From a virus, in the IMG/VR virus record IMGVR_UViG_3300017989_006421, positions 29,570 to 93,569 of that record: a DNA stretch of 64,000 nt. The stretch is one strand, 5' to 3'. Made by a program: the position numbers and the translations under genes. The notes beneath the pieces were generated by a model. The model saw only the letters and a program-made list of their open reading frames with translations. It searched no databases and was not told the DNA's origin. Shown here in pieces: positions 3,350 through 63,591 of the stretch. Position 1 is the first letter of the stretch. Every line of letters starts with the position of its first letter.

Positions 3350-4426
3350 TTAAGCTCCCCTATGACTTTTCTTACCCTCGAGATATTGGTTACTCACAAT
3401 TTTGAGCTTTACCCGACCACACATATTATCGCGTCTCTCTTTAATTGGTTGAACCACCACGCCTTCTCTAAGGTGGTTTGCCCCTGGGATAAGGCTGTCC
3501 CCCTCCGCCAGCTCAAGAACTTCCTCATTACAGAGACCCCGATAAACCACAGGTGCCCAATTCAATCCCGGCACCTCTGAAACAAGGGTGAAGGCTTCAT
3601 CAAATTCTAACCAATTCCCATCCAGATCAAGTATATCAAAAACTGCTACAAAGAACTGATTACGATTTGCTCCATATTTGAGACTCTGAACCTGCCCGTA
3701 CACCTCAGCATAAAGGACCAGTCCAGGATGAGCGCGACACCAGGTTTCGATAGCCGGATTTTGTTGGAGGGTTTGCCACCAGGGACTCTTTTCGTCCTTT
3801 TTCTTCCAATTGGTTCGACTACCACAGAACATCCTTAGTGTTTCACTTTCGTTGGGGAAGGCAGCGTCACAAGGACCTATCGGAGTACCATCTGGCCAAG
3901 TCTTATCTGACTTGGGGAGAGTACAAACAAACCGAGCGTTACAACCATGAATCTTCTCGGTTACTACTATCTCTTCACCCTCAACAAAGATACCGCTGCC
4001 ATAGCGGCGGTAATTCTCGACATCATACTTGGGGTAGTAACCATGTGGGCCAGTTTCATTATCTGTGTTGAAACTCGTCGGAAGAGGCGGCTCGTAGCGG
4101 GTGATACCCATCAGTTCCATGACATCATCACCCTCTTTGGTGCCCTCCGGTGCAAACCATACTAAACCCTGCGACAAAATCCCGCGAAATCGACGTACCC
4201 GAATCCGACGCCATCGGTCACTACTGGAGTCCTTTAGGAACTGAAATGCCTCAATATCAGGTACCATATAGTCAGGTGGAATATAGACGGCTAAATCGCC
4301 TTCCTTAAAATCATTCAGCCGTATACAACAGGACCAACCCCAAATATCGACCAACCCCAGGGTATCCGCGTTAGGGTGTTTTTTCACCTTAGGAATGGTT
4401 ATGACTTCAATCGCATGAGAACTCAT
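3350..4426 (-). CDS. RNA ligase, Rnl5/DraRnl-like
   Basis: A 358-residue covalent nucleotidyltransferase that joins RNA ends using ATP. The adenylated lysine is in motif I, TEKIHG (near residue 158). Motif III-like FFVAVFDIL, motif IV REGVVV and motif V VKLKIV follow in order. The N-terminal third (IPKVKKHPNADTL and onward) resembles the OB-like domain that precedes the ligase core in the Deinococcus Rnl type, rather than T4 Rnl1. The start overlaps the stop of the HAD phosphatase by 4 bp, so the two are co-translated and may act together in tRNA or RNA repair. Confidence 0.82.
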   Translation of the reverse strand: MSSHAIEVITIPKVKKHPNADTLGLVDIWGWSCCIRLNDFKEGDLAVYIPPDYMVPDIEAFQFLKDSSSDRWRRIRVRRFRGILSQGLVWFAPEGTKEGDDVMELMGITRYEPPLPTSFNTDNETGPHGYYPKYDVENYRRYGSGIFVEGEEIVVTEKIHGCNARFVCTLPKSDKTWPDGTPIGPCDAAFPNESETLRMFCGSRTNWKKKDEKSPWWQTLQQNPAIETWCRAHPGLVLYAEVYGQVQSLKYGANRNQFFVAVFDILDLDGNWLEFDEAFTLVSEVPGLNWAPVVYRGLCNEEVLELAEGDSLIPGANHLREGVVVQPIKERRDNMCGRVKLKIVSNQYLEGKKSHRGA

Positions 4427-4929
4427 TGACTTACCCTCAAAACATCCATAAATTCCGAGATGTCATAAGTGGCCTGATTCCAGGGCTGAGGAAAAAGCAC
4501 AGCTCTAGCCCCCTCTTCGCTACTGAAATCCTCTACCTGTTTTGGCGTGTCATCAATCAGCAATGTGTGGGGTCGAGCTAACAGATGTTTGTGCCGAGTA
4601 AAAACAAACCGATCAAACTGAGAACCGAAGATCCTCTTAATCCATCTAACTCTGCCATGAAGAGCAGCAAGAGAGGCAGCAGCGGTACAAAGATACCATG
4701 AACCCCGTTTTTCGATCAAATCCACTAGTTCTTCCAACCATGGATAGGGTTCCAACTCTGCCCACCACGTACTGGATTCATTGAGGGTTTTCCAAAAAAG
4801 GGTGGAACTAACCCCAATCAATTTATGTAAAGCCCTGGTGTCCGCGTCCGTAACATCTACTCCAAACTTATCCGATACCCCCTTGTTGAAGTCAACGATA
4901 ACGCCATCCATGTCCAAATATGTGATCAC
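4423..4929 (-). CDS. HAD-family phosphatase, 5'(3')-nucleotidase-like
   Basis: A 168-residue haloacid-dehalogenase-fold protein. The nucleophile motif I is LDMDGVIVDF near the N-terminus. A later TLLIDDTPKQVEDF matches the acidic motif IV of the NT5C deoxyribonucleotidase group. It could dephosphorylate nucleotides (pool control) or polynucleotide ends. Overlap with the RNA ligase gene favours an RNA-repair role, but the sequence alone cannot decide. Confidence 0.68.
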   Translation of the reverse strand: MITYLDMDGVIVDFNKGVSDKFGVDVTDADTRALHKLIGVSSTLFWKTLNESSTWWAELEPYPWLEELVDLIEKRGSWYLCTAAASLAALHGRVRWIKRIFGSQFDRFVFTRHKHLLARPHTLLIDDTPKQVEDFSSEEGARAVLFPQPWNQATYDISEFMDVLRVSQ

Positions 4930-5773: not shown

Positions 5774-8701
5774 TCAACCTTCCTTCTTCTTTTTAGCAAA
5801 TGGACTCTTTGGTTTACACTCCCGATCAGCCCCAGCGTCTAGCCACTTTTCGATCAAATCCATGTGCTGGGTAGTAAAATCCCAGGTGATGGTATCAGCG
5901 GCGTTTAGACCAATCTCCATGTCCACTTCCAAGGGCGTAAACTCTTTATCGATCCCGTACCGATCCAACCCTGGATCGAGCATGACATCTTCGATTACCT
6001 CAACAGCATCTCTCAGTTCTGTTCTGGGAACGACAAAATAGATGGAGTCATGGACTACGTTAACGGCTCGCCAAACCTTTTCATGAGTGTAAACGTACTG
6101 CCAGAATTTATACACGGCTAGCATTTGAACGTCACTGGCAGTAGACTGGATCCCAGAGTTTTGACATTGATTGCGGGCGTGAGTATGCTCACTCTTGATA
6201 GACCACGCACCATACGTAGTTCGACGACGTCCAAACAAGCTGTACACGAATCCCACATTGTCAGCGGCCGCGTTATTCTGCTTGAGGAATTTGGTTAGAT
6301 TAATGAAGGGACCAAGGAAAGCATCTACCTTTATCTTAGCTTCTTCTACTGGAATGCCAAGTTTCCCAGCCATTTGGTGCTCGGGGGTACCGGAGAACAT
6401 GCAACCAAATGTAATCCCCTTGGCTTCAGTACGCTGATCTTTGGTAACCTCACCAACCGGGATACCAAACACCCGCGAATAATTCTGTTTGTGGGCGTCG
6501 CCTTCCCCATCCACAAAAATGCGCTCGTATAATTTCGCGGTGGGCTTCTTACGGAATTTCGCCTTTAATTTACTAATGGCCCTAAACACAGCAGCCATCT
6601 TATCATCTTTACTCGTTATGGCCCCAATTCTCACTTCAGCAGTCGAGTAATCTGCTGCTATGAGAACCCACCCCGGTGGAACGGCCACAATTCGTTTTAT
6701 CCAGGTTTTAATCTCGTTTTCAGCACGCGGTATCTGTTGCAAATTAGGATCAGTACAAGACAACCGGCCAGTAACCGTGGAGTTAATGCGAAAAGACGCC
6801 CTTATTCGTTCGTCTGTATTCATCGCAGCGGCGTCCACAAAACTCTCGATGAACCCCCGCATTTTGTGGGCCTGTTTGTATTCCTTAATCTGTCGAACGA
6901 CTTCTATTTCCCCGTAGTGTTCTTCAAAATCCTTACCAGTGGGGAATTTTCCCTCTTCTGCTCCTGGTGGGGGCTGCAACCGCAGGAATTCATAATAGAA
7001 AGGGACCAAGTGTTTCTGGGTTTTCATTGGGTCAAACAGTTGTTCGTTTTCGTCGTCTAACACTTTGAACAGAGTGGGTTTGACTTGCTCGTCGTTAAGC
7101 TGCTCGTTAAATTTGGCAACTTTGGAATCTGTGAACAGATCCGCTCTTTGGCGGTTGATGAGATTCGAAAGCGAGTTTTCCCATCTTGTACCCAGAAGCT
7201 TTGTAGCCAAATCCATATCAAAGGGCAGACCAGCCGACTCTAATTCTGAGACGGAATAGGACAGTTTGGCCATGATCTCCATTGGTGTTTTGAGAAGACC
7301 AGAGTCTTTTGCAGCGATTAGCTTCCGCAGTAGTTTGTACAGACGTAGGGTGTAGCAGGCGTCTTTAGAACCATACCAGATCACATCCTTCCCTGGAACC
7401 CGAATCAGACTGCTGCGGTGTTCCTTTGCCGCTTCCCAATCTGGGTCAACAAAGTCGAGCCAATACTGGACCATCGCGTCTAGCGAAGACCGAAACATGG
7501 GGGGGCCACCCGACCGCGTTTTGTCGTTAATATTCTCATCCAGAAGATACTGCATAATCATAGTATCGAACTGGAATTGAGCCACCCTAATTCCAAGACA
7601 CCCCCGAGCGATGGCTAAGTCAAACTTGGCGTTGTGAGCGATTTTGGGAACTTTGTTTCGAAGGAGATCCTTGAGCAAACGACGTACTTTGGGTTTCTGT
7701 TTTTTCGTCCACCCCGCATCCGGGTGATCAACCAGAACTCCCCAACAATCAGTGCTATTGGTTGACCAATGCAGGGATACTATGGCGTTATCCCCCGGAC
7801 ACCTCGATAGACCGGTTGTTTCAAAGTCAAACGCCATGACTTTGGCCTTGGATGCTTCTGCCACAGCCTCTCGTAGTTCTGGCAAAGTCTTAGCCCACTT
7901 CACCTCCGGCTGCTCTCTCATCTTAGAGATGTCAAAGGCCGTGTTTGCTGATGCCTTTGTTATGTCAAGGAACAACTGTGATCCCCGATGAGGGTTCCTC
8001 ACAATCATGGAAGGAGACCAAGTCGCCATAACCCGAATAGCGGGGTCAAATTTACACGGATAGAAATTCCCCCGTTTGTTAACCAGCCTGTCCCCCTCTT
8101 CTTCATCAATAAGGGCTGACACGGCTATTTGACCAAGAGCTATGATAACTCGGGGCCTTACTAATTCGATCTCATGTTGTAGGGCCTCTCGGTTACTTTC
8201 AATAGATTCCTCGGTGGGAATCTCAGGATTGTGTTCTACGATAGGCGGCATCGTGTTGACTACATTAGTCAAATAGATGTTATAAGCCGATTGATCGGAA
8301 TTTTCGATACAGAACCGAAGTAAATGACCTGCCCTACCATGGAATACTCGGTTAGCTAAATCATCATCTTTCCCAGGTGCGTCACCAACAAACATAATGG
8401 TAGTAACACACTCCTCGGGAAGAGCATAGAATTCTGCTGGAATATTGGGGTTGCGTGCCCCCGCCAATCGACCAGGGTCCCTGGCTGGGCGGGGTCGGTT
8501 TTCTCGATAGAGCTTCCTTCCGGATTTGGTCAGATCAACTTTGGGGTAAGGAGTATTCCAGGGGTTTTCTCTGCCACCACGGAATCCACCCCGCCCCTGT
8601 CTTTTATAGCCTTTACCCTCAGACCTTTGCCCCATCTGTTTAGGACCAGATTTTAATAGCCCCAAGTTACACCTCGACTTTAAAATTAACAATAAACTCA
8701 A
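5774..8701 (-). CDS. Family A DNA polymerase with N-terminal uracil-DNA-glycosylase-like and 3'-5' exonuclease domains
   Basis: The probable replicative polymerase, up to 975 residues. Residues of roughly 95-235 match a family 4/6-type uracil-DNA glycosylase fold (FVGDAPGKDDD ... HGRAGHLLR ... IIALGQIA). A DnaQ-type proofreading domain follows with DFETTG, AHNAKFD and a Tyr-x3-Asp motif (YGSKDACY). The PolA palm has motif A AADYSTAEVRI, an O-helix region (RTEAKGITFG) and motif C VVHDSIY. A glycosylase-polymerase fusion also occurs in SPO1-like phages. The start is unclear: TTG 8701 gives this frame, while a TTG behind GAGGTG or the ATG before GQRSEGKGY would shorten it by 15-25 residues without affecting domains. 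Confidence 0.93.
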   Translation of the reverse strand: MSLLLILKSRCNLGLLKSGPKQMGQRSEGKGYKRQGRGGFRGGRENPWNTPYPKVDLTKSGRKLYRENRPRPARDPGRLAGARNPNIPAEFYALPEECVTTIMFVGDAPGKDDDLANRVFHGRAGHLLRFCIENSDQSAYNIYLTNVVNTMPPIVEHNPEIPTEESIESNREALQHEIELVRPRVIIALGQIAVSALIDEEEGDRLVNKRGNFYPCKFDPAIRVMATWSPSMIVRNPHRGSQLFLDITKASANTAFDISKMREQPEVKWAKTLPELREAVAEASKAKVMAFDFETTGLSRCPGDNAIVSLHWSTNSTDCWGVLVDHPDAGWTKKQKPKVRRLLKDLLRNKVPKIAHNAKFDLAIARGCLGIRVAQFQFDTMIMQYLLDENINDKTRSGGPPMFRSSLDAMVQYWLDFVDPDWEAAKEHRSSLIRVPGKDVIWYGSKDACYTLRLYKLLRKLIAAKDSGLLKTPMEIMAKLSYSVSELESAGLPFDMDLATKLLGTRWENSLSNLINRQRADLFTDSKVAKFNEQLNDEQVKPTLFKVLDDENEQLFDPMKTQKHLVPFYYEFLRLQPPPGAEEGKFPTGKDFEEHYGEIEVVRQIKEYKQAHKMRGFIESFVDAAAMNTDERIRASFRINSTVTGRLSCTDPNLQQIPRAENEIKTWIKRIVAVPPGWVLIAADYSTAEVRIGAITSKDDKMAAVFRAISKLKAKFRKKPTAKLYERIFVDGEGDAHKQNYSRVFGIPVGEVTKDQRTEAKGITFGCMFSGTPEHQMAGKLGIPVEEAKIKVDAFLGPFINLTKFLKQNNAAADNVGFVYSLFGRRRTTYGAWSIKSEHTHARNQCQNSGIQSTASDVQMLAVYKFWQYVYTHEKVWRAVNVVHDSIYFVVPRTELRDAVEVIEDVMLDPGLDRYGIDKEFTPLEVDMEIGLNAADTITWDFTTQHMDLIEKWLDAGADRECKPKSPFAKKKKEG

Positions 8702-12664: not shown

Positions 12665-13117
12665 TCAATTTCTTGCTGTACAAGTTGCACAGGAAGTTGG
12701 GGTTTCCCACCACTCCACCGAAACCAGAGTTAGTCCTTTGGGTATGTGGGGATTCAATTGTCCAAAGGCCCACTGAGCAAGATACTCTGCGGTAGGGGGC
12801 TTATCGGTAATGATAAACCGTTCATTTCGTCGTATAATAAAATCCCTATCTGGGTCGTCTTTCCAAATAGCAAACCCATGATCTAGTTTATCGTGGACGA
12901 AAGACATGAGAGCTTGTTTAAGGAAGCGGAAATCCATGACCATGCCTTCACTGCTGTCTCCTGGCTTGGTACAGATTTCTCCTTCGACATGAGCCACTAC
13001 TCTAGCTCTATGGCCGTGGAACTGATTGCAATAACTGAAGTGATTGGGGAGCGTGTGACCGTAGTCTAGCTGGATTTCCTTAGAGACCTGTATGGATTGC
13101 GATTTTGCGATGATCAT
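12665..13117 (-). CDS. queD: QueD, 6-carboxy-5,6,7,8-tetrahydropterin synthase
   Basis: A 150-residue 6-pyruvoyl-tetrahydropterin-synthase fold enzyme. It converts dihydroneopterin triphosphate (the FolE product) to 6-carboxytetrahydropterin in the 7-deazaguanine pathway. Zinc ligands are visible as His21 (YGHTL), His34 and His36 (HGH), with catalytic Cys30 in YCNQFHGH. DKLDHGF and PPTAEYLAQW are conserved, and the C-terminal VEWWETPTSCA holds the pterin-binding Glu. The Cys-x3-His-x-His arrangement favours QueD over a generic PTPS. FolE (53.8 kb) and QueE (31.0 kb) are encoded elsewhere in the window. It overlaps dnaN by 4 bp. Confidence 0.88.
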   Translation of the reverse strand: MIIAKSQSIQVSKEIQLDYGHTLPNHFSYCNQFHGHRARVVAHVEGEICTKPGDSSEGMVMDFRFLKQALMSFVHDKLDHGFAIWKDDPDRDFIIRRNERFIITDKPPTAEYLAQWAFGQLNPHIPKGLTLVSVEWWETPTSCATCTARN

Positions 13118-27633: not shown

Positions 27634-30126
27634 TTGAAAAATATACCGGTTGCACCCCCAGCAAATGTCGAATTAACCGCGCCTCAGATAACTCCTAACG
27701 CCAAAAAGGTGCTGGAAACTCGCTATGTAGCGCGAGATGCCGAGGGCAAGACGACAGAAGAACCTGAAGATGTCTATCGCCGAGTAGCGTGGGCGATAGC
27801 TTCAACAGAGGCTAAACAGGGATGGATATCACGAAAACGGGATTTAACTGAGTTATACGCCAATTTCCATGATTTAATGGCTACTGGGAAATTTCTTCCC
27901 AACACTCCGTGTCTGATGAACGCGGGAAGAAACGGGAAGTTGGGGTTGTCCGCCTGTTTTGTTTTGGCTCTCGATGATGACCGCGAGTCCATCATGAAAT
28001 GTGCCAAGGATATTTGTGACATTCAAGCGGGGGGCGGCGGGACGGGCATCCCCCTGGATCGTCTCCGCCCAACCGGGGACATCGTTTCTAGCACCGGGGG
28101 CCGGGCAGGCGGACCCATCTTATTCTGGGGGGTGTTAAATGCTGTAACAGACGCCATTTCCCAGGGTGGTAAGCGTCGGGGGGCCAACATGGGAATGATG
28201 AATGTCTTTGCCGTGGACATACTGAAATTCCTGTTTGCTAAACAAGACCTCGCCCTATTTAATTCATACAATATTTCTGTGAAGATTCCGGAGTGGTTCA
28301 TGTATGAACTTCGGAAGAAACCAGAAAATCCTTTACGGGTGGTTAACCCGCGAAACCACGCAGAATACTACTTGCCTCACCGTTTGATCGATGTTTGTCG
28401 CAAGGCGGCGGAGGTGTCGGCCAATGGAATACACGATTATAAACTTATCAATTCGTGTTATTCGCTTGATGATTTGTTCCCAGTTGAGGATGGTACTCCT
28501 CAAGAACAAGTCATAACTGTAGCCGATATATGGGAAATCATTGTACAGAACGCTTGGCAAACCGGGGAACCGGGGCTATGCTTTATCGACCGCGTGAACA
28601 ATGATTTCCCACTGCCCATCGAAATTGAAGCCACGAACCCGTGTGGCGAGACGCCGCTCCCCCCGAACGGCGCATGCGTCTTAGGTTCGATTAACGTGTC
28701 TGCCTTTGTATTCGAAGATGCGAATGGAATCCCCCAAATTGACTGGGACGCCTTACACCAATGCACCCTCGACGCTACTCGATTCCTGGATAACGTGGTT
28801 TCAACTAGTTCTTGGGCAACTCCAGAAATAGCCAAAGTAACCGCTGTGACTCGGGACATTGGGTTAGGTATTATGGGCTTGGCTGATCTCTTTTATAAAT
28901 TACGAATTAAATATGGTTCGGGAGAGAGTTTTGATCTGGCCGAAAAGATCATGCAATTTATCCAAGAGACTTCTCACGAAGCTTCGGAGTGGTTGGGTGA
29001 GAACCGGGGGTACTATGGGGCTTATAATGAATACAAAGATGAAGGGGCGCCCCGGCGTAGAAACATTCGTATCACGACTGTCGCTCCTACTGGGACTATT
29101 TCTATACTGGCTGGGTGTAGCGGGGGAGTAGAACCCTTGTTTGCTTTGGTGTTCGATCGTAATATTATGAAGGAACGGGAGGACAGCAAACCCTTGTTGG
29201 AAATCAACCCAGTTTTCCAAGAAGTATTGAGGCAAGAGGGGTTGTTAACTGATGAAGTGTTGATAGAGGTTTCTAAAAATCAGTCTCTCCGGGACGTGGA
29301 ATCAATCCCGCAGCAAATCAAAGACGTGTTTTTAACTACTGCTGATATCACCGCTGATCAGCACGTAATGATGCAAGCGGCTGTACAAAAGTTCACCGAT
29401 AACGCAGTTTCAAAGACTGCGAATTTGGATAAGGATTGTGAGCCTGGTGCAGTTGACCGGGCGTACCAATTAGCCTATGATTTGGGGTGCAAAGGAATTA
29501 CGATTTATCGCGATGGATCACGGTCCAGTCAACCCATGTCTATGGGAAACAGGGTGGAAGATTTAAGCAAATCCAGACAAATTGATCCGGATCCCACTCC
29601 TCGATTCACTGCTTCTATTAAACTCAGACAGACTTCTCCATTCGGGAACCTGCATATTCACGTCTCAATTGACCCCCAACAAGACCGGGAGTTAGAAGTT
29701 TTTGCTCAATTGGGGAAAGGTGGAGAAATCGCAGCCGCTGATTTGGAAGCCATTTGCCGGTTGAGTAGTCTGTATCTGCGATCCGGGGGTTCTCTTAAGT
29801 ACATTATCCGTCAGTTAAGTGGAATTAGTAGTACCTTGCAACTTCCATCTAAAGATGGCAAAATTGGGTCACTAGCGGATGCACTAGCCAAGGCTCTAAG
29901 CAGATATGCTATTGCTAAAGAAAAATTCGGTGTAAAGGCTCTGTTGTTGGGTGAATCTACTTTGTCGGCTGATGAATTAGACAAATTAGAAACGGCTGGG
30001 CAGTTTGGTGGTAGTAACCAAGCCGATGACGCGTTTGAACTTCGGTGCCCAGAATGTGGTAATCGTTTGGTTGTAAGTGAAGGCAAATGCGTTAAGTGTT
30101 ATGCTTGTTCATACTCTGCTTGCTAG
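27634..30126 (+). CDS. nrdJ: Class II (adenosylcobalamin-dependent) ribonucleoside reductase
   Basis: An 830-residue reductase that makes deoxyribonucleotides with a B12 radical and needs no second subunit. The redox Cys sits in GLSACFVL near residue 110, the thiyl Cys in ATNPCGETPLP, followed by NGACVLGSIN. GGGTGIPLDRLRPTGD and GYYGAYNEY are typical of the long NrdJ type (TIGR02504). The C-terminus carries a zinc-ribbon-like CPECGN ... CVKCYACSYSAC, which also provides swinging redox Cys. TTG start at 27634. Class II enzymes work with or without oxygen, fitting a variable environment. Confidence 0.93.
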   Translation: MKNIPVAPPANVELTAPQITPNAKKVLETRYVARDAEGKTTEEPEDVYRRVAWAIASTEAKQGWISRKRDLTELYANFHDLMATGKFLPNTPCLMNAGRNGKLGLSACFVLALDDDRESIMKCAKDICDIQAGGGGTGIPLDRLRPTGDIVSSTGGRAGGPILFWGVLNAVTDAISQGGKRRGANMGMMNVFAVDILKFLFAKQDLALFNSYNISVKIPEWFMYELRKKPENPLRVVNPRNHAEYYLPHRLIDVCRKAAEVSANGIHDYKLINSCYSLDDLFPVEDGTPQEQVITVADIWEIIVQNAWQTGEPGLCFIDRVNNDFPLPIEIEATNPCGETPLPPNGACVLGSINVSAFVFEDANGIPQIDWDALHQCTLDATRFLDNVVSTSSWATPEIAKVTAVTRDIGLGIMGLADLFYKLRIKYGSGESFDLAEKIMQFIQETSHEASEWLGENRGYYGAYNEYKDEGAPRRRNIRITTVAPTGTISILAGCSGGVEPLFALVFDRNIMKEREDSKPLLEINPVFQEVLRQEGLLTDEVLIEVSKNQSLRDVESIPQQIKDVFLTTADITADQHVMMQAAVQKFTDNAVSKTANLDKDCEPGAVDRAYQLAYDLGCKGITIYRDGSRSSQPMSMGNRVEDLSKSRQIDPDPTPRFTASIKLRQTSPFGNLHIHVSIDPQQDRELEVFAQLGKGGEIAAADLEAICRLSSLYLRSGGSLKYIIRQLSGISSTLQLPSKDGKIGSLADALAKALSRYAIAKEKFGVKALLLGESTLSADELDKLETAGQFGGSNQADDAFELRCPECGNRLVVSEGKCVKCYACSYSAC

Positions 30127-30584: not shown

Positions 30585-31033
30585 TAGTCCAAGCGGGTGT
30601 GCAACATCTTTCGATCATCGCGTGTCTGAATGAACAATTTCATCTTGATATGCCGGGTTTTTGTTGGGACCGGGAAGATTGGATTAGCCGTCAAATTGAA
30701 CAAGGTGATTTTTGGCTCCTTCTTGGGGACGATCAGGACAACCAAGTTACTGGGGCTCTGTGTCTCAAACATAAACCAGATGACGAATTGCACATTTTGA
30801 CTTTGGCTGTATCCCCCAGGGGTGAAGGTCGGGGTGCCTGTTTAGTTGAATTTGCCAAACAGCGGGCCGTGCAATTAGACTGTGCTCGGTTAACCGTGGA
30901 TTCTTTTGAGGAGTATGGGCTGTTAGATTTCTACCAGGGGCAGGGGTTTGAAGTGGTGGGAACAACAGGACCACGAGAATGGACTTCCTATAGTTTCGTC
31001 TGGTATACAGAGGCTGATACTCATGTTGAATGA
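30581..31033 (+). CDS. GNAT-family N-acetyltransferase
   Basis: A 150-residue protein with start at ATG 30581, which overlaps the previous stop (ATGA). The acetyl-CoA-binding motif A is LAVSPRGEGRGACLVEFA (R-x-x-G-x-G/A), followed by the C-terminal DFYQGQGFEVVG of GNAT enzymes. Substrate unknown; host-protein or DNA-base acetylation are both conceivable. The next gene, queE, starts 10 bp before its end. Confidence 0.75.
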   Translation: MIVQAGVQHLSIIACLNEQFHLDMPGFCWDREDWISRQIEQGDFWLLLGDDQDNQVTGALCLKHKPDDELHILTLAVSPRGEGRGACLVEFAKQRAVQLDCARLTVDSFEEYGLLDFYQGQGFEVVGTTGPREWTSYSFVWYTEADTHVE

Positions 31034-31736
31034 GCATTTCGTGTCTATCCAGGGAGAAGGTCCTTCGACTGGGCATCCCGCTACTTTTATCCGTTTTGCT
31101 GGGTGTAATCTCAAATGCGCATGGTGTGACACACCTTACGCCCAGAAAAAGGATGGAGGAGTCCAGATTACTGCAGAGGAATTGGCTCGTAAAGTAATCC
31201 AGGGGCCACAGCTTTGTGTGTTTACCGGTGGGGAACCTATGCTTTACCAAGAGACTATACAGAGAGTAATTGCTCTTTGTGCTCCGTTGGGCCATCGTTT
31301 TGAGATTGAGACGAATGGGACTATTGGTCCTAAGAATGGGTCTGCTGGTGAATATCTTGAGGTGTGGACGACCCGACTCCCTAGAACTGGCCCTAATTGG
31401 GAACACCAAGAATCGGGGGTTACCCCTGTTTTGCGAATGGTTTTTAGTCCCAAATTCGAGTGGGTCAAACAAGACTACATGAGAGAAGATTTTGTGTGGG
31501 CACGAAACTACACCATCAAAGCTCCAGTACGAAATCGTGATGAAGTTCAAGCACTGGAAATTTGGCTTAAAAAATTGAATCTATCCTTTGACGATGTTTG
31601 GTTGATGCCTTTGGGGACCACCGCGAGTAAGATTAGGAAAGAAGCAGATTGGTTAATTCAGGCCGCCATCGAATTTGGTTTCAAGGTCAGTTTTCGCACT
31701 CACGTGCTACTGTGGGACAACAAACGAGGCGTATGA
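31023..31736 (+). CDS. queE: QueE, 7-carboxy-7-deazaguanine synthase
   Basis: A 237-residue radical SAM enzyme that rearranges 6-carboxytetrahydropterin to 7-carboxy-7-deazaguanine. The cluster motif is the QueE form CNLKCAWC (Cys28, Cys32, Cys35), preceded by SIQGEGPSTGHPATFIRFAG, a strong QueE signature. GGEPMLY binds SAM and EIETNGT follows. Start at ATG 31023. With FolE and QueD in this window the route from GTP to 7-carboxy-7-deazaguanine is complete. Confidence 0.9.
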   Translation: MLNEHFVSIQGEGPSTGHPATFIRFAGCNLKCAWCDTPYAQKKDGGVQITAEELARKVIQGPQLCVFTGGEPMLYQETIQRVIALCAPLGHRFEIETNGTIGPKNGSAGEYLEVWTTRLPRTGPNWEHQESGVTPVLRMVFSPKFEWVKQDYMREDFVWARNYTIKAPVRNRDEVQALEIWLKKLNLSFDDVWLMPLGTTASKIRKEADWLIQAAIEFGFKVSFRTHVLLWDNKRGV

Positions 31737-35120: not shown

Positions 35121-35443
35121 TGGTTTTTGACCCTAGTCGAATACTGGTTTTTGCTCTGGTCTCGTACTGGCTTACTTTTGTGGCGATGTACTCTAAGATA
35201 TGTGTTATTCGGGTTATCCGAGTGTACCTAAGAAAGCGTATTCGTTTTTTTCGGGATCAACTGGTTTGTGCCATGTGTACAGGAACAGTAGCCAGTTTTC
35301 TGGTGTCTGGGGTTAGTTGGCTGGGGGGTGGATCGTTAGTAATAGTAAACCCATTTTGTGATGCAGCTTTGGGGGCTTCCTGCTGTTATTTGTTTGACCT
35401 GATCACGACCAAACTAGAAGGTTCTCACCAGGATGCTAACTAA
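35117..35443 (+). CDS. Small membrane protein, DUF1360-like
   Basis: 108 residues with two or three hydrophobic segments. The pattern RDQLVCAMCTGTVASFLVSG resembles the Cys-containing segment of DUF1360 proteins found in phages. It overlaps the sigma-factor and methyltransferase genes. Function unknown. Confidence 0.5.
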   Translation: MMVFDPSRILVFALVSYWLTFVAMYSKICVIRVIRVYLRKRIRFFRDQLVCAMCTGTVASFLVSGVSWLGGGSLVIVNPFCDAALGASCCYLFDLITTKLEGSHQDAN

Positions 35444-36251
35444 AACGCTTTTGCATGATTCCCAACAGCCGTGGCCTCTTCTAAAAGAGAAAGCCGCTTC
35501 ATTGGTATACGCAGATCCCCCGTTCAATATTGGGGTCGATTATGATCAACACGACGATAAGATGTTGGAAGCTGATTATCGAGAATTCGCTGAAAAATGG
35601 GTGGATCAAGCATTCTTACATTTGAAGGTGTCGGGTTGGTTGGTGATTTGTTGCGCTCCTGAATTGGTGTACTTGTACCAGGACATAGCATACAAGCGGG
35701 GGTTCATCTATCATGATACTGTTGCTTGGTATCGCACATTCGGAAATCAAAGCCAATCAAATAAACGGCTCAGTCGGGGGTGGACGGCGGTATTGCTCTT
35801 CAATCTATCACGAGAAACTACGCCTAACTGGGACCACATCCGGGTTCCCAGTGATCGAATGATAAAATACCAAGATAAACGAGCCAGTCCCAAAGGAAAG
35901 ATTCCACAAAACGTCTGGCAAATTAGTCAAGTTTGCGGGACGTTTAAAGAACGTGAGGGGTGGCACAAATGTCAACAACCAATGAAACTGGTTTATCGGC
36001 TCGTGGTGTCATTGACTAAACCCAAAAATTTGGTCATTGACCCTTTTTCTGGATCGGCCACCACTTTGGCTGTTTGTGAATTGGTGGGTCGGAGGGGTGT
36101 GGGTCTCGAAATCAGTGAGAACTACGTTAAACGAGGGAACATTAGAGTTCAAACTATTCAGCAGTTCACTGTTCCTGAGAAACGTAGAACATTGTCACGG
36201 CTGCGAGAAGGGCTAATTCAACACGAGTGTCCTCGGTGTGGGTGGAGATAA
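35433..36251 (+). CDS. DNA N6-adenine/N4-cytosine methyltransferase, beta-type order
   Basis: 272 residues. Catalytic motif IV comes first (YADPPFNIGVDY, near residue 30) and SAM-binding motif I last (VIDPFSGSATTL, then GVGLEISENYVKRG). This IV-then-I order is that of the beta class. The C-terminus has CPRCGW, a possible half zinc knuckle. No cognate endonuclease is next to it, so it is probably an orphan enzyme protecting phage DNA. Confidence 0.86.
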   Translation: MLTKTLLHDSQQPWPLLKEKAASLVYADPPFNIGVDYDQHDDKMLEADYREFAEKWVDQAFLHLKVSGWLVICCAPELVYLYQDIAYKRGFIYHDTVAWYRTFGNQSQSNKRLSRGWTAVLLFNLSRETTPNWDHIRVPSDRMIKYQDKRASPKGKIPQNVWQISQVCGTFKEREGWHKCQQPMKLVYRLVVSLTKPKNLVIDPFSGSATTLAVCELVGRRGVGLEISENYVKRGNIRVQTIQQFTVPEKRRTLSRLREGLIQHECPRCGWR

Positions 36252-36822: not shown

Positions 36823-37534
36823 AATCAGTTTTCCAATGACTATAGATGTTACTCCAGATGAAGAGTACCCGGTTCGGATACTGGAGGCCTATCGCCGTAG
36901 TTGTGATGTCAGATGGAATACCACTGGACCTTCTTGTGTTCAAGCGAATAAAGATCAACAAAAGCGTGCCACAGTTTTAGACCAAGCCTTAGTTCAACTT
37001 AAGAGGGCAACAGAGGTGCACACAGAAAAAGAACACCCACCTACTTTGCATGTCTTGTGTGGTCTACCGGGTGTGGGGAAAACCAAGTGGGCAAAAGAAC
37101 ACCTGAAAGACCACCCAGATACAGTCGTTATTGATATTGATTGTATTACTGCAATGTTGCACGGTGGGGTGTACACTGATTACCAGCGAAAATTCCAACC
37201 TTTGTACAAGGCCATAGAATGGGACTGCATTAAAAACGCCCTCTTAAATGGTCGAGACGTGATTGTTGATAAAGTGTGTCACCTCAGGAGTACGCGAGTT
37301 CGTTTTCGGGAACTCGCTCAACAACTACACGCCCGAACTACACTGGTTTTATTCGCCACTGCTTCGAGTCCCGAAGAACTAATCGATCGTCGAATGGAAA
37401 ACGCCAGAGGGTTTAGCAGAGAGCACTGGACGGGGGTTATTAAAGAAAGGGCATATCAATCCGATTTCGCTGATGCAGAATCAGAGGGGTTTGATAACGC
37501 TATAACGGTTGGTAACAAAATGAGGCAAGTGTAA
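36812..37534 (+). CDS. P-loop kinase, polynucleotide-kinase-like (AAA_33 type)
   Basis: 240 residues from ATG 36812, behind GAGGAGG. Walker A is GLPGVGKTKWA (near residue 90), a DID metal motif follows, and an RxxxxR-type lid (RRMENARGF) lies near the end. The fold resembles the kinase half of T4 Pnk and small zeta-type kinases. It could phosphorylate 5' ends for the RNA ligase at 3.4 kb, or a nucleoside or base. Confidence 0.65.
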   Translation: MNPEISFPMTIDVTPDEEYPVRILEAYRRSCDVRWNTTGPSCVQANKDQQKRATVLDQALVQLKRATEVHTEKEHPPTLHVLCGLPGVGKTKWAKEHLKDHPDTVVIDIDCITAMLHGGVYTDYQRKFQPLYKAIEWDCIKNALLNGRDVIVDKVCHLRSTRVRFRELAQQLHARTTLVLFATASSPEELIDRRMENARGFSREHWTGVIKERAYQSDFADAESEGFDNAITVGNKMRQV

Positions 37535-37962
37535 TGGTTCCCGAAAAAAGAGTGTATTTAGCTGGTCCTATGTCTGGACTACCCGAGGCCAATTTCCCTG
37601 AATTCAAAAGGGTTAGGGAAATCCTGCGTAAAAACCGGTTTAAAGTTGTGTGCCCCGCTGAAATGACCAAGGCTCTGGGAGGGGGTAGACGAGAATGCAT
37701 GCTTCGAGATGTACAACATGTTTTGAATTTAAACAAATCGGAGGGTCATGGACAGAGCGGGTGTGTGATTATCCTTCCTAATTGGCGGGAGTCAACCGGC
37801 GCTAATACTGAGGTATTGGTTGCTTGGCAAATCGGTATCAACGTATATGAGTATACTGATTTGGAAAAGGACCCTTTCTTTTCCTTAACTCTACTCCACA
37901 CGGTTCCTTCGCGATTGCCTTATTCTAGTAATCCTTCTTATCGGCCTACCACTTTGGAATAA
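37534..37962 (+). CDS. DUF4406 / nucleoside 2-deoxyribosyltransferase-like protein
   Basis: 142 residues. VYLAGPMSGLPEANFPEF is the DUF4406 signature, and NWRESTGANTEVLVAWQIG carries the conserved acidic residue. The fold is shared with nucleoside 2-deoxyribosyltransferases, which cleave or exchange the N-glycosidic bond; activity of DUF4406 members is unproven. Given the modified-nucleotide genes here, a role in base exchange or nucleotide clean-up is possible. Confidence 0.72.
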   Translation: MVPEKRVYLAGPMSGLPEANFPEFKRVREILRKNRFKVVCPAEMTKALGGGRRECMLRDVQHVLNLNKSEGHGQSGCVIILPNWRESTGANTEVLVAWQIGINVYEYTDLEKDPFFSLTLLHTVPSRLPYSSNPSYRPTTLE

Positions 37963-50678: not shown

Positions 50679-51206
50679 TTGAAAAAACTATTGGAACACC
50701 AGCAGATTCTTGTTCGTATCGATCAATTAGCTAGTCAGATTGACTCAGACTTTGAGGGCCGAAGACTAATAGTTGTTCCCGTTTTGTGGGGTGCTTGCAC
50801 TTTTTCGATGGAGCTATTTAATCGTTTAAAAACTACCGTGACTATTCTTCCAATATGGGCTACTTCTTATTCTGGGACTTCTCAGGGTAATTTATCTATC
50901 AAACATGATTGGGATTTATCCCAAATAGATCCCGCCGCCTGTTCGGCGTTAATAGTAGACGACATTTTGGACTCTGGTAAAACCATCAATGGCGTAGTGT
51001 CTTTGTTGAAAGGTTCCGGGTTTCACGACACAAGAACGTGTTTTTTGTTGGACAAAGAGAAATCTAGCCGTTGCCCAAATTATACTGGATTTGTTATCCC
51101 GGATAAATTTGTAGTAGGGTTTGGATTGGACATGGGTGGTAGATATCGGGGCTTACCAGACATATGCATAATCGAAGAATGTAAGGGTCAGGATGAAAGG
51201 TCATGA
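50679..51206 (+). CDS. HPRT-like phosphoribosyltransferase, copy 1
   Basis: 175 residues from TTG 50679. The PRPP-binding motif is LIVDDILDSGKT, with the usual two acidic residues. VVPVLWGAC holds the PPi loop, and VVGFGLDMGGRYRGLPDI matches the HPRT C-terminal signature (VVGYGLDY...YRNLP). It should attach ribose-5-phosphate to a purine-like base. A paralogue follows with a 4-bp overlap. Confidence 0.8.
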   Translation: MKKLLEHQQILVRIDQLASQIDSDFEGRRLIVVPVLWGACTFSMELFNRLKTTVTILPIWATSYSGTSQGNLSIKHDWDLSQIDPAACSALIVDDILDSGKTINGVVSLLKGSGFHDTRTCFLLDKEKSSRCPNYTGFVIPDKFVVGFGLDMGGRYRGLPDICIIEECKGQDERS

Positions 51207-51793
51207 AAAAATTTCTAGAACATAGAGACATTGTCACTCACATCGATACAATCGCCAATCAAATAAACGATGCCTACCGTGGAGAAAAGGTGGTTGTAGT
51301 TCCGGTCTTGTGGGGCGCCAGTCTCTTTGTAATGGAACTATTCAGGACTTTGCGAATTGACATGATAATTCGTCCGGTTTGGACGGCTACTTATTCTGCT
51401 GATCGTGGGGTAACCATTGCACACGATTGGGAACCGCCAAGCAACCCAGCCGATTATTCTGTGCTAGTAATTGATGCCATCATAAACACAGGCGAGACTT
51501 ATGATAAGATTCTGACCATGCTAGCGGATTTTGGATTTCGAGATGCAGACGCGTGTTTCTTACTGGACACGAAGAAGTCAGGGCATGTTGGTAATTACTC
51601 TAGTCTTGATGTTTCGGGCAAGTTCGTGATTGGGTTTGGGATGGACCTGAAAGGCAAATATCGGGGGTTATCAGATATATGGGAATGTGGTGATGGCCCT
51701 TCCCCAGGTTTTCCTGATTACGATGGTCAAGTAGAACTCCCTCTTGGAGATTGGAAACTCACTTTGTCTCCTCAAGTGACGGAGTCCAAATGA
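51203..51793 (+). CDS. HPRT-like phosphoribosyltransferase, copy 2, altered PRPP motif
   Basis: 196 residues, clearly paralogous to copy 1 from the first residues (KKFLEH against KKLLEH) to VIGFGMDLKGKYRGLSDI. The PRPP motif reads LVIDAIINTGET: the second acidic residue is Ala, and SGKT is TGET. An extra 20-residue C-terminal tail is present. It may have another substrate, or form a regulatory or hetero-complex with copy 1. Confidence 0.75.
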   Translation: MKKFLEHRDIVTHIDTIANQINDAYRGEKVVVVPVLWGASLFVMELFRTLRIDMIIRPVWTATYSADRGVTIAHDWEPPSNPADYSVLVIDAIINTGETYDKILTMLADFGFRDADACFLLDTKKSGHVGNYSSLDVSGKFVIGFGMDLKGKYRGLSDIWECGDGPSPGFPDYDGQVELPLGDWKLTLSPQVTESK

Positions 51794-53772: not shown

Positions 53773-54387
53773 ATGTCATCAAACGAAGACAAATTTCAAA
53801 CGGGGTACGCGCTAATCCTAGAAGGTTTAGCCGAGATGGGCCACTCCGGATATAACTTCAAAGGTACTGATTCGCGAGCTGCTAAAGCCCTGCATGAAAT
53901 GGTGTGGTCGAAAGATCAGATCAATAAAGAAGTCGCCAAAATTCTTTCTTGTTCATTCCCAGATCAAGGAAACGGGGTGTATGATGCAATGATTTGCAGT
54001 ACGCAAAATATCGTGAATTTTATGTGTCCCCACCACCTTCTTCCGGTTATGGCTTTGGTTCACATAGCCTACGTTCCAGCCGCAGAAAGGCAAGAATTCC
54101 GAATACTGGGTATTAGTAAACTAACTCGCCTCGCGACTACTATGGCTAAGCAGCCCATCCTGCAAGAATCCTACACCTATGAGCTAGCCACGACCTTACA
54201 CAATAGTGTTCATGCAAGGGGAACCGCTGTGATGGTAGAGGCAATGCATAATTGCATGAGTTGTCGAGGAGTGCAAAGTCCCACGTCTCGAATAACCACC
54301 ACTACTGTTTTGGGGGCTTTCGTAGAGGGTCATGTTAAAGCGGAATTTATCGAACGAGTTAGTTCGACTAGGGGGTCATTGCTTTAA
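53773..54387 (+). CDS. folE: GTP cyclohydrolase I
   Basis: 204 residues. Zinc ligands are Cys85 and His88 in MCPHHLLPV and Cys161 in AMHNCMSCRG; GISKLTRL and KQPILQE are conserved. It opens GTP to dihydroneopterin triphosphate, the first step towards 7-deazaguanines (with QueD and QueE in this window) and folate. Its stop and the next ATG share a base. Confidence 0.93.
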   Translation: MSSNEDKFQTGYALILEGLAEMGHSGYNFKGTDSRAAKALHEMVWSKDQINKEVAKILSCSFPDQGNGVYDAMICSTQNIVNFMCPHHLLPVMALVHIAYVPAAERQEFRILGISKLTRLATTMAKQPILQESYTYELATTLHNSVHARGTAVMVEAMHNCMSCRGVQSPTSRITTTTVLGAFVEGHVKAEFIERVSSTRGSLL

Positions 54388-58007: not shown

Positions 58008-59069
58008 ATGATGAGTATGTTTCCCACAGGCAAGTTTTCAATAGTTATTGACGGGCAATGGGGATCAACCGGTAAAGGCAAATTGCTGGCCTTTATCTTC
58101 GAGCAGAATCCCCAAGTTTCTGTAGTAGTTGGGGACAACATGCCCAATGCAGGCCATTCTTTTTATGGCCCAGTTTCCGGCGAAAAACATGTGTCTAAAG
58201 CCTTGCCAGTAGGCGCATGGTTCCCCACTGTCCACACCGTGATAATTGGACCTCATGCTGTATTTGACGTGGATCGCCTACTAATGGAAGTTGCAGCGGC
58301 CCAAAAAGAACGGGGAGATTTCACCCTGGCTATTCACCCTCGTGCGTGTGTCTTGTCACAAGCTGATGCTGACGTTGAGAAACAAAGACTGACTGGTATC
58401 AGTTCCACCATGCAGGGTAGTGCTGAAGCCGTGATACGTAAGATGCGGCGCGACCCCAAAGATAGCAATATTGCTAAACATGATCTGCGTGTTGCCAAAT
58501 TTGTTGCTGATACTGGCACACTGGTCAGAGAATCTTTGTTGGCAGGGGCCGCGGTGATTTCTGAAACTGCTCAAGGATTTGATCTCGGCATTAACTTTGG
58601 GCATCAATACCCCTACACCACCAGTCGGGATTGTTTGGTAGGACGTGCTTTTGATAACGCTGGTATTCCACCCCATCCAGATTACTATGGTGACATAGTA
58701 GGAATTATTCGAACCTATCCCATTCGAGTCGGTAGTCTGGAAGGATCGACCTCAGGCCCCTATTACTCAGACCATGAAGAAACAACCTGGGCGCACCTTA
58801 GTGAAAAGATTGGTCAACAAATAGAAGAGTACACGACCGTCACAGGTCGAGTACGGAGAGTCTTTGATTTCAGCTTTTTGCAACTAGAAAGATTCCTACA
58901 ACACGTTCGTCCAAATTACATGTTTTTGAATTTCGTTAATTATCTAACAGACCCAGAGCCTTTTTACGAAAAACTGCAGCAGTGTCTAAATGCTCACGGG
59001 TGTAAACTGTGGATGCTGGGAACAGGCCCCAAAAATGATGAAGTGGAACTTAGGCAACTCCCGGATTAA
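58008..59069 (+). CDS. purZ: PurZ-type adenylosuccinate synthetase homologue (2-aminoadenine pathway)
   Basis: 353 residues, shorter than bacterial PurA (about 430) and in the range of archaeal PurA and PurZ. The P-loop-like start is DGQWGSTGKGK; in PurA this reads GDEGKGK, so Ser20 stands where the catalytic Asp is. Loss of that Asp, as I recall, marks PurZ of phages S-2L and phiVC8, which joins Asp to dGMP to make the precursor of dZMP. NAGHS, a TSRDC loop (HQYPYTTSRDC) and IRTYPIRVGS confirm the family. Downstream an Adk-like kinase gene follows after 10 bp. An ordinary AMP-making PurA is less likely because of the Ser. Confidence 0.83.
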   Translation: MMSMFPTGKFSIVIDGQWGSTGKGKLLAFIFEQNPQVSVVVGDNMPNAGHSFYGPVSGEKHVSKALPVGAWFPTVHTVIIGPHAVFDVDRLLMEVAAAQKERGDFTLAIHPRACVLSQADADVEKQRLTGISSTMQGSAEAVIRKMRRDPKDSNIAKHDLRVAKFVADTGTLVRESLLAGAAVISETAQGFDLGINFGHQYPYTTSRDCLVGRAFDNAGIPPHPDYYGDIVGIIRTYPIRVGSLEGSTSGPYYSDHEETTWAHLSEKIGQQIEEYTTVTGRVRRVFDFSFLQLERFLQHVRPNYMFLNFVNYLTDPEPFYEKLQQCLNAHGCKLWMLGTGPKNDEVELRQLPD

Positions 59070-59079
59070 GGAATGACGG

Positions 59080-59610
59080 ATGCAGCTAACCTTCATAACT
59101 GGTTTACCCTGTAGCGGAAAATCGTATCGGTGTGATCACCACAAAAGCGATAATTCTGAAACGATTGTTCTGTCATGTGGAAAGCTGATGCGAGTGCTTT
59201 TAGGAGAAGACTTCTTCGTCAAACATGGATCACACCTAGCTAATCCCCAGGTAGAAAACATGGTTCGTTCCCTGGTAAAAGAATCCGTTCTACTAGCCGT
59301 TGCTCTTGAAAAACCTTTGGCAGTAGACGGGTTCCCCCGGAGTGTGGATCAAGTATGGTGGCTTGCCTCTAACCTCGGGACTTGGTTGGTTGATAACTCA
59401 GCAGTTGAGATAGAGATGCTAGACCCTACGTCCAAAGTGTTACAAGCTCGTAAGAACCGGAGAAGGGGTACCAACGGGGTGTTAACGACTCGGATACTTA
59501 CCACTGAGCGTGAAAAAATCCAACCCATATTTAAAGCATGTGAAGTAGCCGCAGATTATGGGTATTGGCGGGTCCAATACTACACAGGCGAGGAATCTGG
59601 GGATGGCTAA
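59080..59610 (+). CDS. Adenylate-kinase-like nucleoside monophosphate kinase
   Basis: 176 residues. Walker A is ITGLPCSGKS (residues 6-15), and VDGFPRSVDQVWWL matches the adenylate kinase signature DGFPR-x-x-x-Q. The lid is short (RKNRRRGTNG). It immediately follows purZ, so a plausible job is to phosphorylate dZMP or related modified nucleotides, a step that studied Z phages are thought to leave to host kinases. Ordinary AMP or dNMP kinase action is the alternative. Confidence 0.76.
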   Translation: MQLTFITGLPCSGKSYRCDHHKSDNSETIVLSCGKLMRVLLGEDFFVKHGSHLANPQVENMVRSLVKESVLLAVALEKPLAVDGFPRSVDQVWWLASNLGTWLVDNSAVEIEMLDPTSKVLQARKNRRRGTNGVLTTRILTTEREKIQPIFKACEVAADYGYWRVQYYTGEESGDG

Positions 59611-61704: not shown

Positions 61705-63591
61705 ATGGCTAAGAAGAAGTACACCGCTGACAACATTACAGCGATGGAGGGGGTCGAACAGATCCGTCATCGGCCTGGGATGTGGGTTGGTGAAGTTACT
61801 GCTTACAAATTATTTCGGGAAATCCTCGACAACGCTGTTGACGAACACCTAGCGCAAGAAGGAAACCAAATCGAGGTCGTCTTGTCTGAGGACAAGACAA
61901 CGATTTCGATCCGTGACTATGGTAGGGGAATTCCTACTGGGCTCCACAAGAAAACCGGTAAGCCTGCCCTTACTACCGTGTTCACGACCTTGTTCAGTGG
62001 GGGTAAATTTGACGATAAGGTGTATGCCACTGCTGGTGGGTTGCATGGTGTTGGGTCAGTCGTTGTTAACGCCCTTTCCAGCCATCTCAAGGTTCGGGTG
62101 TGGCGAGATGGTCATGAATGGCAGCAGGAGTTTAGTCGGGGAACAGAAACGACTAAATTGAGAAAGGTGGGGAAGGCGACTAAGAAACAATCCGGAACCG
62201 AAGTTACCTTTACCCCAGATACGTCCCTAGAAAAACAGTTCGAGGAAATTCAGTTCGATCCTCAGTTGATTTCGGAGAGGCTGGAAGAGGTTGGGTACCT
62301 TTGTCCAGGATTAACCCTGGTCTTCCAATGCGGAAAGAAAACAACCACATACTCCAGCACTGGTTTAACCCAATTCGTAACTGATTGGGCACCCAAGGGA
62401 GAAAGTCTGCTCGGTCCGCTTCATGTGTCTGACAAAGAGGGGAAAGACCGTATTGAAGCTGCCATTTTATTTGTAGACAGTAGCGAGCGGTCAGTTTATT
62501 CCTATTGTAACGTGGTAGAAACTCCCCAACACGGCCGGCATTACGAGGGGTTTTTGGACGGGCTAGAAGAAACCTTGGTTCCTCTAGGGAAGAAAGAAGG
62601 ATTCGAATTTACCCGCAATGAGTTAATGGAAGGATTATCGGGGGTAATCCATGTTCTACTAAAAGAACCCAGCTATAGCTCGCAATCAAAAGAACGGTTG
62701 GTTACAAAGACAGCCCGAGCATTGGTGAAGAAGTGTGTTACTCGCACGTTGACTAAACTTGTGGGTAAGGAAGACCTAACTCAGCTTTTTGAGAAACTCT
62801 CCGCTTCATATCAAGCCAAGACCGAAGCTCAGGACTGGAAAGAGATTGCTAAGAAACTCAGAAAACAGGGTCGTAGGAAAAACGATTTCTTGATGGTTGG
62901 GGGTTTATCTGAGTGTAGCAATCCCAATCCCGCCGAGCGAGAATTGTTCATTGTTGAGGGTGAGTCTGCGGCAGGAACTGCTAAGATGGGCCGGGATCCC
63001 CATACGCAGGCTATTCTGGCCATGCGGGGTAAGATCCTGAATGTACTCAGGTTCAACCCAACACGGGCACTAGATAATGGTACCCTGCGAGCCATAGCCG
63101 ATACCATTGGCACCAACATCATTGATAAGTGTGTGGTAGAGAAAACTCGGTACGGGAAAATCATCATCTTAGCTGATGCTGATAGTGATGGTCATCACAT
63201 CGCATGTTTATTACTAGTGCTTTTCCACCAGTGGTTCCGTCCTTTACTTGAAGCCGGGTGTGTCTATGTTGCTGAACCCCCTTTGTTTGGTGCTAGCAAG
63301 GGTAAGAAACGAATTTATGGAAACACCAGAAAAGAATTGAAACGAGCGATAGGAAAGAACCCGCAGGGTTGGAGGGTCACCCGTTTTAAGGGACTGGGTG
63401 AGATGAATGCGGACCAACTTCAGTATGTAGCTTTAGACCCCGCGACCAGGGTTATCAGTCAGATTAAACCTGGAGCGTTAGATCAGGACGATATCAGAGT
63501 AGATCAACTGATGGGGAGTGATTCTTCCCACCGCAAAAAGTTGTTGTTCGGAGACTCTGATGATTCCCAAGCTAATGGTAAAGTATGCTAG
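61705..63591 (+). CDS. Type IIA topoisomerase subunit B (GyrB/ParE)
   Basis: 628 residues. The GHKL ATPase has EILDNAVDEH, IRDYGRGIPTG and GLHGVGSVVVNALS. The transducer follows, and the TOPRIM domain has EGESAAGTA and DADSDGHHI for metal binding. Length and lack of the long GyrB insert fit ParE or phage-type subunits. Subunit A was not found and is probably just beyond the right end. It relieves supercoils during replication. Confidence 0.93.
   Translation: MAKKKYTADNITAMEGVEQIRHRPGMWVGEVTAYKLFREILDNAVDEHLAQEGNQIEVVLSEDKTTISIRDYGRGIPTGLHKKTGKPALTTVFTTLFSGGKFDDKVYATAGGLHGVGSVVVNALSSHLKVRVWRDGHEWQQEFSRGTETTKLRKVGKATKKQSGTEVTFTPDTSLEKQFEEIQFDPQLISERLEEVGYLCPGLTLVFQCGKKTTTYSSTGLTQFVTDWAPKGESLLGPLHVSDKEGKDRIEAAILFVDSSERSVYSYCNVVETPQHGRHYEGFLDGLEETLVPLGKKEGFEFTRNELMEGLSGVIHVLLKEPSYSSQSKERLVTKTARALVKKCVTRTLTKLVGKEDLTQLFEKLSASYQAKTEAQDWKEIAKKLRKQGRRKNDFLMVGGLSECSNPNPAERELFIVEGESAAGTAKMGRDPHTQAILAMRGKILNVLRFNPTRALDNGTLRAIADTIGTNIIDKCVVEKTRYGKIIILADADSDGHHIACLLLVLFHQWFRPLLEAGCVYVAEPPLFGASKGKKRIYGNTRKELKRAIGKNPQGWRVTRFKGLGEMNADQLQYVALDPATRVISQIKPGALDQDDIRVDQLMGSDSSHRKKLLFGDSDDSQANGKVC

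Follow-up and report, generated by a model that had tools for sequence, protein, structure and literature searches.

A divergent PurZ-type gene and candidate helpers for 2-aminoadenine synthesis in a jumbo-sized uncultured phage

Does the gene at positions 58008-59069 of the stretch of viral DNA analysed here (the window: 64,000 nucleotides, running from 29570 to 93569 in a virus record of 93,569 bp) encode a phage PurZ, and does its phage build 2-aminoadenine (Z) into its genome? A first-pass annotation, made from the sequence alone, had suggested both from the motif GQWGSTGKGK, with Ser at the position of the PurA catalytic Asp, and from a PurZ-like length. Our preferred reading, which we consider likely (a probability of roughly 0.8), is that of a divergent phage PurZ assisted by phage-encoded helpers that would together make dZTP; all catalytic specificities, and the presence of Z in virion DNA, are inferred. 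The two adjacent genes at the centre of this reading are:

58008-59069, plus strand: purZ-type gene, 353 residues, predicted N6-succino-2-amino-deoxyadenylate synthetase (dGMP + Asp + ATP)
59080-59610, plus strand: adenylate-kinase-like NMP kinase gene, 176 residues, starting 10 bp after purZ, predicted dZMP kinase

The purZ reading frame comprises 353 codons without an internal stop, the minus strand being full of stops there, and directly follows the RNase HII stop; owing to three in-frame ATGs, the first, second or fourth residue may be the start. The product carries the motif IDGQWGSTGKGK, whose Ser aligns with the catalytic Asp of E. coli PurA, and its length is indeed PurZ-like, most phage references having 341-410 residues and E. 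coli PurA 432. The motif (by translation and alignment) and the length read at first pass therefore both held. Profile searches report strong hits with the NCBIfam PurZ model (2.2e-63), phrog_1211 (2e-58), the phiVC8 PurZ structures 6FM1/6FKO (2e-59) and S-2L PurZ 7ODX (2.7e-40), while PurA structures match far more weakly (2.4e-20 at best). Homology to PurZ is thus far beyond chance, and the nearest proteins from isolated phages are 37-41% identical. On the NCBIfam model NF038379, the protein scores 214 bits, under the curated cut-off of 300 bits that the phiVC8, S-2L and PurZ0 proteins clear, and hence is a divergent member of PurZ. Two members of its own subclade score 215 and 223 bits, and the PurZ of Ochrobactrum phage OH, annotated beside a pyrophosphohydrolase and DatZ, is also under the cut-off (241 bits). 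This cut-off belongs to the model and does not define PurZ biochemically.

The phylogeny check proposed at first pass was run and places the protein in phage PurZ, neither in PurA nor in PurZ0. It falls inside phage PurZ in a maximum-likelihood tree of 57 rows (bootstrap 100, SH-aLRT 99), with PurA split off at 100/100, and a 107-row quick tree returns the same placement. It belongs to a nine-row subclade (100/100 support) composed of metagenomic phages only, of which no cultured or assayed member is known to us. A PurZ cannot be called from the Ser alone because chromosomal homologues of other clades carry it too (22 of 22 sampled from bacteria and archaea outside the phage clade); it is necessary, not sufficient, and its earlier use as a sign of PurZ held only in part. 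Two of these chromosomal homologues, when scanned, reach 222-227 bits with the PurZ model of NCBI and score higher, 265 and 359 bits, on the PRK04293 adenylosuccinate synthetase model, on which the phage protein scores only 117 bits.

Like PurZ enzymes that use ATP, the phage protein has in its nucleotide pocket the Ser, Thr at S-2L position 273, Asn305, Phe306 and, at S-2L 308/phiVC8 N297, an Asn; it thereby fulfils the ATP-type pocket criterion (Asn305, Phe306, Asn/Gln308, S-2L numbering). The S-2L Q308/phiVC8 N297 residue lies opposite position 2 of the energy donor's purine (PMC8342488); it is Asn in the phage protein and its subclade, and Asp in PurA, PurZ0 and 21 of the 22 bacterial homologues. 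ATP-pocket residues, tree position and gene neighbourhood are therefore what separates the phage protein from the chromosomal homologues. Membership of PurA is ruled out by the trees and the pocket residues, and that of PurZ0 by a different clade, 27-29% identity and Asn instead of Asp in the pocket. A divergent PurZ working with dGMP and ATP is likely, its substrate and ATP use being inferred without an enzyme assay.

Among the homologues sampled, L129-L202 form a large bacterial and archaeal chromosomal family of PurA homologues (GQ[YF]GSEGKG, about 350 or 535 residues). PurZ0 groups with this family and not with phage PurZ (95/92), unlike the single-origin view of PMC12884076. On one Bacteroidetes MAG contig (L187), a PurA-family homologue lies beside dUTPase-like and PolA-like genes, resembling a prophage Z-type locus.

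An IMG/VR protein search returned an identical PurZ on IMGVR_UViG_3300029267_004162 (262,650 bp; G001, L013), and this contig holds the whole 93,569-bp record, reversed, at 99.99-100% identity (262-kb contig position = 224058 - window position). The purZ gene therefore resides in a jumbo-sized uncultured phage, which encodes its own PolA, clamp, clamp loader, DnaB, ligase, GyrB, ribonucleotide reductase and sigma-70-like factor. A PHROGs search of ten large proteins recovered little, and the Terminase_6N model had no match on the 262-kb contig, with matches in the relatives G006 and G007. The phage contig also carries, outside the window, a pyruvoyl-dependent arginine decarboxylase (L003 10417-11049, minus strand). 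Within the window, an N4/N6 DNA methylase is found at 35433-36251; one of the adenine-N6 type would be odd if Z replaces adenine.

The gene next to purZ matches adenylate kinase in a profile search (5e-9), and its AF2 model (pLDDT 83) returns adenylate kinases and UMP-CMP kinases with Foldseek. A profile search places a homologue at the purZ 3' end in all 14 loci of the subclade, often with a 4-bp overlap with the purZ stop. Across 80 PurZ loci, the kinase is present in 22 and DatZ in 44, the two never together (Fisher p 1.4e-10, uncorrected for shared ancestry and hence descriptive). This neighbourhood association is shown; the substrate is inferred. In adenylate kinase, the Gln of the motif DGFPR-x3-Q contacts the adenine of AMP, and UMP/CMP kinases have Asn there. 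The motif is kept in the phage kinase and the Gln is invariant in an alignment of 12 homologues. We therefore favour the reading that its substrate is a 6-aminopurine nucleotide, dZMP. Kinases are not named as part of Z gene sets in the literature searched. In the neighbouring PurZ clade (L057-L060, L062, L075, L080, L082), the kinase is present too, mostly within a longer ORF with an unidentified extra domain.

The first-pass annotation had recognised neither MazZ nor DatZ, and this held for the whole 262-kb contig. The search that recovers the DatZ (HD phosphohydrolase) of phiVC8 and S-2L gives no match there, nor does a profile built from eight DatZ, so that the absence of DatZ is shown. 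Profiles for MazZ, MazZ-2, DUF550 and DUF5664 are equally silent on the contig, and such local MazZ-type profiles do detect these genes beside 45 other purZ loci; a Pfam MazG search had no power, both controls being missed. The idea that DatZ, MazZ, DUF550 or DUF5664 genes are hidden elsewhere on the contig thus finds no support in these searches. Since there is no DatZ, removal of dATP remains unexplained, unless performed by a dUTPase-like enzyme. Three options had been left for the missing helpers (outside the window, replaced by other enzymes, or absent), and replacement, by the kinase, the dUTPase-like enzyme and PurB, fits best. Other genes bearing on the nucleotide supply of the phage are:

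63518-64000, plus strand: dUTPase-family gene whose true start is probably near 63575; its product, DutZ-like or an ordinary dUTPase, is a predicted dNTP pyrophosphatase
27634-30126, plus strand: ribonucleotide reductase large subunit, a possible source of deoxynucleotide precursors
37534-37962, plus strand: NDT-superfamily (DUF4406) protein, a possible functional analogue of DmtZ, with homologues in G006 and G007

The dUTPase-like gene directly follows the kinase in 7 of the 14 subclade loci and lies 4 kb further on in the 262-kb-contig phage; the homologues that directly follow purZ-kinase in relatives are 44-51% identical. The DutZ enzyme found in PurZ0 phages has hydrolytic activity on dATP as well as dGTP (PMC12884076). 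The motifs of the dUTPase-like protein look canonical, and its homologues include ordinary dUTPases. The purB gene of the phage occupies 23173-24516 on the 262-kb contig, outside the window; G006 and G007 encode PurB as well (35-37% identical), as does another PurZ contig, of 185 kb. For the NDT-like protein, a known NDT-Dut protein gave no match, and homology to known DmtZ is not shown. Only nine detectable genes are common to the phage and the contigs of nine relatives, and they include purZ, the kinase, dut, purB, polA and the NDT-like gene. The set therefore appears to travel between unrelated phages, a possibility that rests on these shared genes. Two further observations concern nucleotide enzymes of the window: tandem phosphoribosyltransferase genes (50679-51206 and 51203-51793), possibly for purine salvage, and an NT5C-like 5'-nucleotidase (4423-4929, minus strand) that could act on dAMP or dUMP.

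A DNA polymerase of the phage is encoded within the window:

5774-8701, minus strand: family A DNA polymerase (PolA) with a UDG-like domain fused to its N-terminus, a 3'-5' exonuclease and motif B AKGITFGCMFSG

In motif B, a Phe at the DpoZ F459 position (phiVC8 F459) replaces a nearly universal Tyr, and this Tyr-to-Phe change is the only one common to both DpoZ groups (PMC8599892). Controls were the nearest 80 IMG/VR polymerases, 65 of them readable at motif B, all with Tyr; three further pattern matches were spurious. PolA thus meets the DpoZ Phe criterion. Because the sibling phages L045 and L051 retain Tyr in their PolA, the change is not shared by the whole subclade and the Phe is suggestive and no proof; it is a single residue, weak alone, and a preference for dZTP is inferred.

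Put together, the preferred reading predicts the following route. PurZ would condense dGMP and aspartate, using ATP, to dSMP, which the phage PurB would cleave to dZMP; the adenylate-kinase-like enzyme would phosphorylate dZMP to dZDP, host NDK would finish the conversion to dZTP, and the phage PolA would incorporate it opposite T. The dUTPase-family enzyme may hydrolyse dATP and dGTP like DutZ in PurZ0 phages, thereby removing dATP and supplying dGMP. The phage genes themselves are present, and the earlier suggestion of a Z genome is supported; Z in virion DNA, full or partial, is only inferred.

Three other readings compete with this route or parts of it. A true PurZ may make dZMP while Z replaces adenine only partly, dATP not being removed and the polymerase not being strictly selective. 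We would not put this ahead of fuller replacement, although it remains a serious contender: DatZ is absent from the contig under a search that finds it in phiVC8 and S-2L, and the sibling PolAs of L045 and L051 have Tyr. Against it, a dUTPase-family gene accompanies purZ in half of the subclade, DutZ of PurZ0 phages acting on both dATP and dGTP (PMC12884076), and the PolA of the 262-kb-contig phage has the Phe shared by DpoZ. The kinase may instead serve another nucleotide (dGMP, dAMP or UMP/CMP), its place beside purZ reflecting general nucleotide supply. Its low overall identity to known kinases and a Foldseek ranking that puts UMP/CMP and adenylate kinases together speak for this, but the adenylate-kinase Gln is invariant in the 12 homologues, a kinase acting on dGMP would compete for the same substrate as PurZ, and the gene tracks purZ and excludes DatZ/MazZ, so that we lean away from it.

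An enzyme of the nucleotide pool, either an ordinary adenylosuccinate synthetase or a homologue of the chromosomal GS type, in a genome with normal adenine, is unlikely. In its favour, the Ser also occurs in the bacterial and archaeal chromosomal homologues, these match the PurZ model equally well (222-227 against 214 bits), and the phage PurB could serve AMP synthesis. However, these homologues favour PRK04293 over PurZ, whereas the phage protein favours PurZ (214 against 117 bits), and they differ from it by an Asp in the nucleotide pocket and by their place in the tree.

Besides the dZTP-making set of the preferred reading, the phage encodes proteins of a 7-deazaguanine pathway (window coordinates unless stated):

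53773-54387, plus strand: FolE, the GTP cyclohydrolase I with which 7-deazaguanine synthesis starts
12665-13117, minus strand: QueD-like protein of the 6-pyruvoyl-tetrahydropterin synthase family
30948-31736, plus strand: QueE-like radical SAM protein
98692-100560 of the 262-kb contig: DpdA-like transglycosylase, 622 residues

On the 262-kb contig, QueC (8e-60) is accompanied by another QueC-like protein, so that this contig holds all five functions: FolE, QueD, QueE, QueC and a DpdA/TGT transglycosylase. The DpdA-like protein was picked up neither by the TGT Pfam model nor by PHROGs, but by tblastn (a phage protein with an annotated TGT domain is about 25% identical), by its DSGGxQ and CxCPxC..H motifs, and by its predicted fold, for which all 18 matches with E <=0.001 are TGTs or DpdA, the DNA preQ0 insertase DpdA 7UI4 among them; the mean pLDDT of the model is only 58.7, the core barrel being better. 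The same five functions make up the phage 7-deazaguanine DNA modification systems (PMC6884629); here, however, the DpdA-like protein is divergent, with best phage matches of about 25%, and co-occurs with PurZ. Its gene belongs to a minus-strand cluster (98692-106822 of the 262-kb contig) that also holds a TnpB-like fragment, an ATP-grasp-like protein (assigned by eye), the second QueC-like protein and QueC, and that may possibly extend preQ0 to another 7-deazaguanine. QueC was found in none of the 55 other PurZ contigs searched, many of which are fragments, and no phage or natural genome with both Z and 7-deazaguanine is described in the literature searched. Since this set lies in a purZ genome, 7-deazaguanine may coexist with Z. 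In a bolder reading, which we can neither favour nor dismiss, both purines would be altered, A fully or partly to 2-aminoadenine via the kinase-type Z set and G partly to 7-deazaguanine via DpdA; the occurrence of both bases in virion DNA is inferred.

Compared with known Z systems, the phage protein shares with the PurZ of Vibrio phage phiVC8 and cyanophage S-2L (6FM1, 7ODX) the family, fold, Ser, dGMP and ATP pocket residues and phage clade. It is 32-38% identical to them, and sits in a separate 100/100 subclade below the NCBIfam cut-off; its locus has no DatZ or MazZ neighbours, and a kinase instead. With the PurZ0 systems (Gordonia phage Ghobes, Arthrobacter phages; DutZ, DmtZ, DpoZ-1; PMC12884076), the phage shares dUTPase-family and NDT-family enzymes, the motif B Phe of PolA and a phage-encoded adenylosuccinate lyase (so annotated in Ghobes and Hiyaa). 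It differs from them in its PurZ-type synthetase (Asn, not Asp, in the ATP pocket), the adjacent kinase, the jumbo genome and the lack of detected dmtZ homology.

In the classical Z phages known, the steps that follow PurZ are left to host enzymes, and pools are controlled by DatZ/MazZ, or by DutZ/DmtZ in PurZ0 phages. A subclade in which an NMP kinase is fixed beside purZ, joined in large phages by a phage PurB, suggests a third, more self-sufficient solution, with a helper set that is not described in the Z-phage literature searched. The kinase itself provides a candidate for phosphorylating dZMP, of use in dZTP production. If the bolder reading is true, Z and a complete 7-deazaguanine set would give a genome with two non-standard purines, and their coexistence would make testable whether the two pathways compete for guanine nucleotides or the two bases protect against different nucleases.
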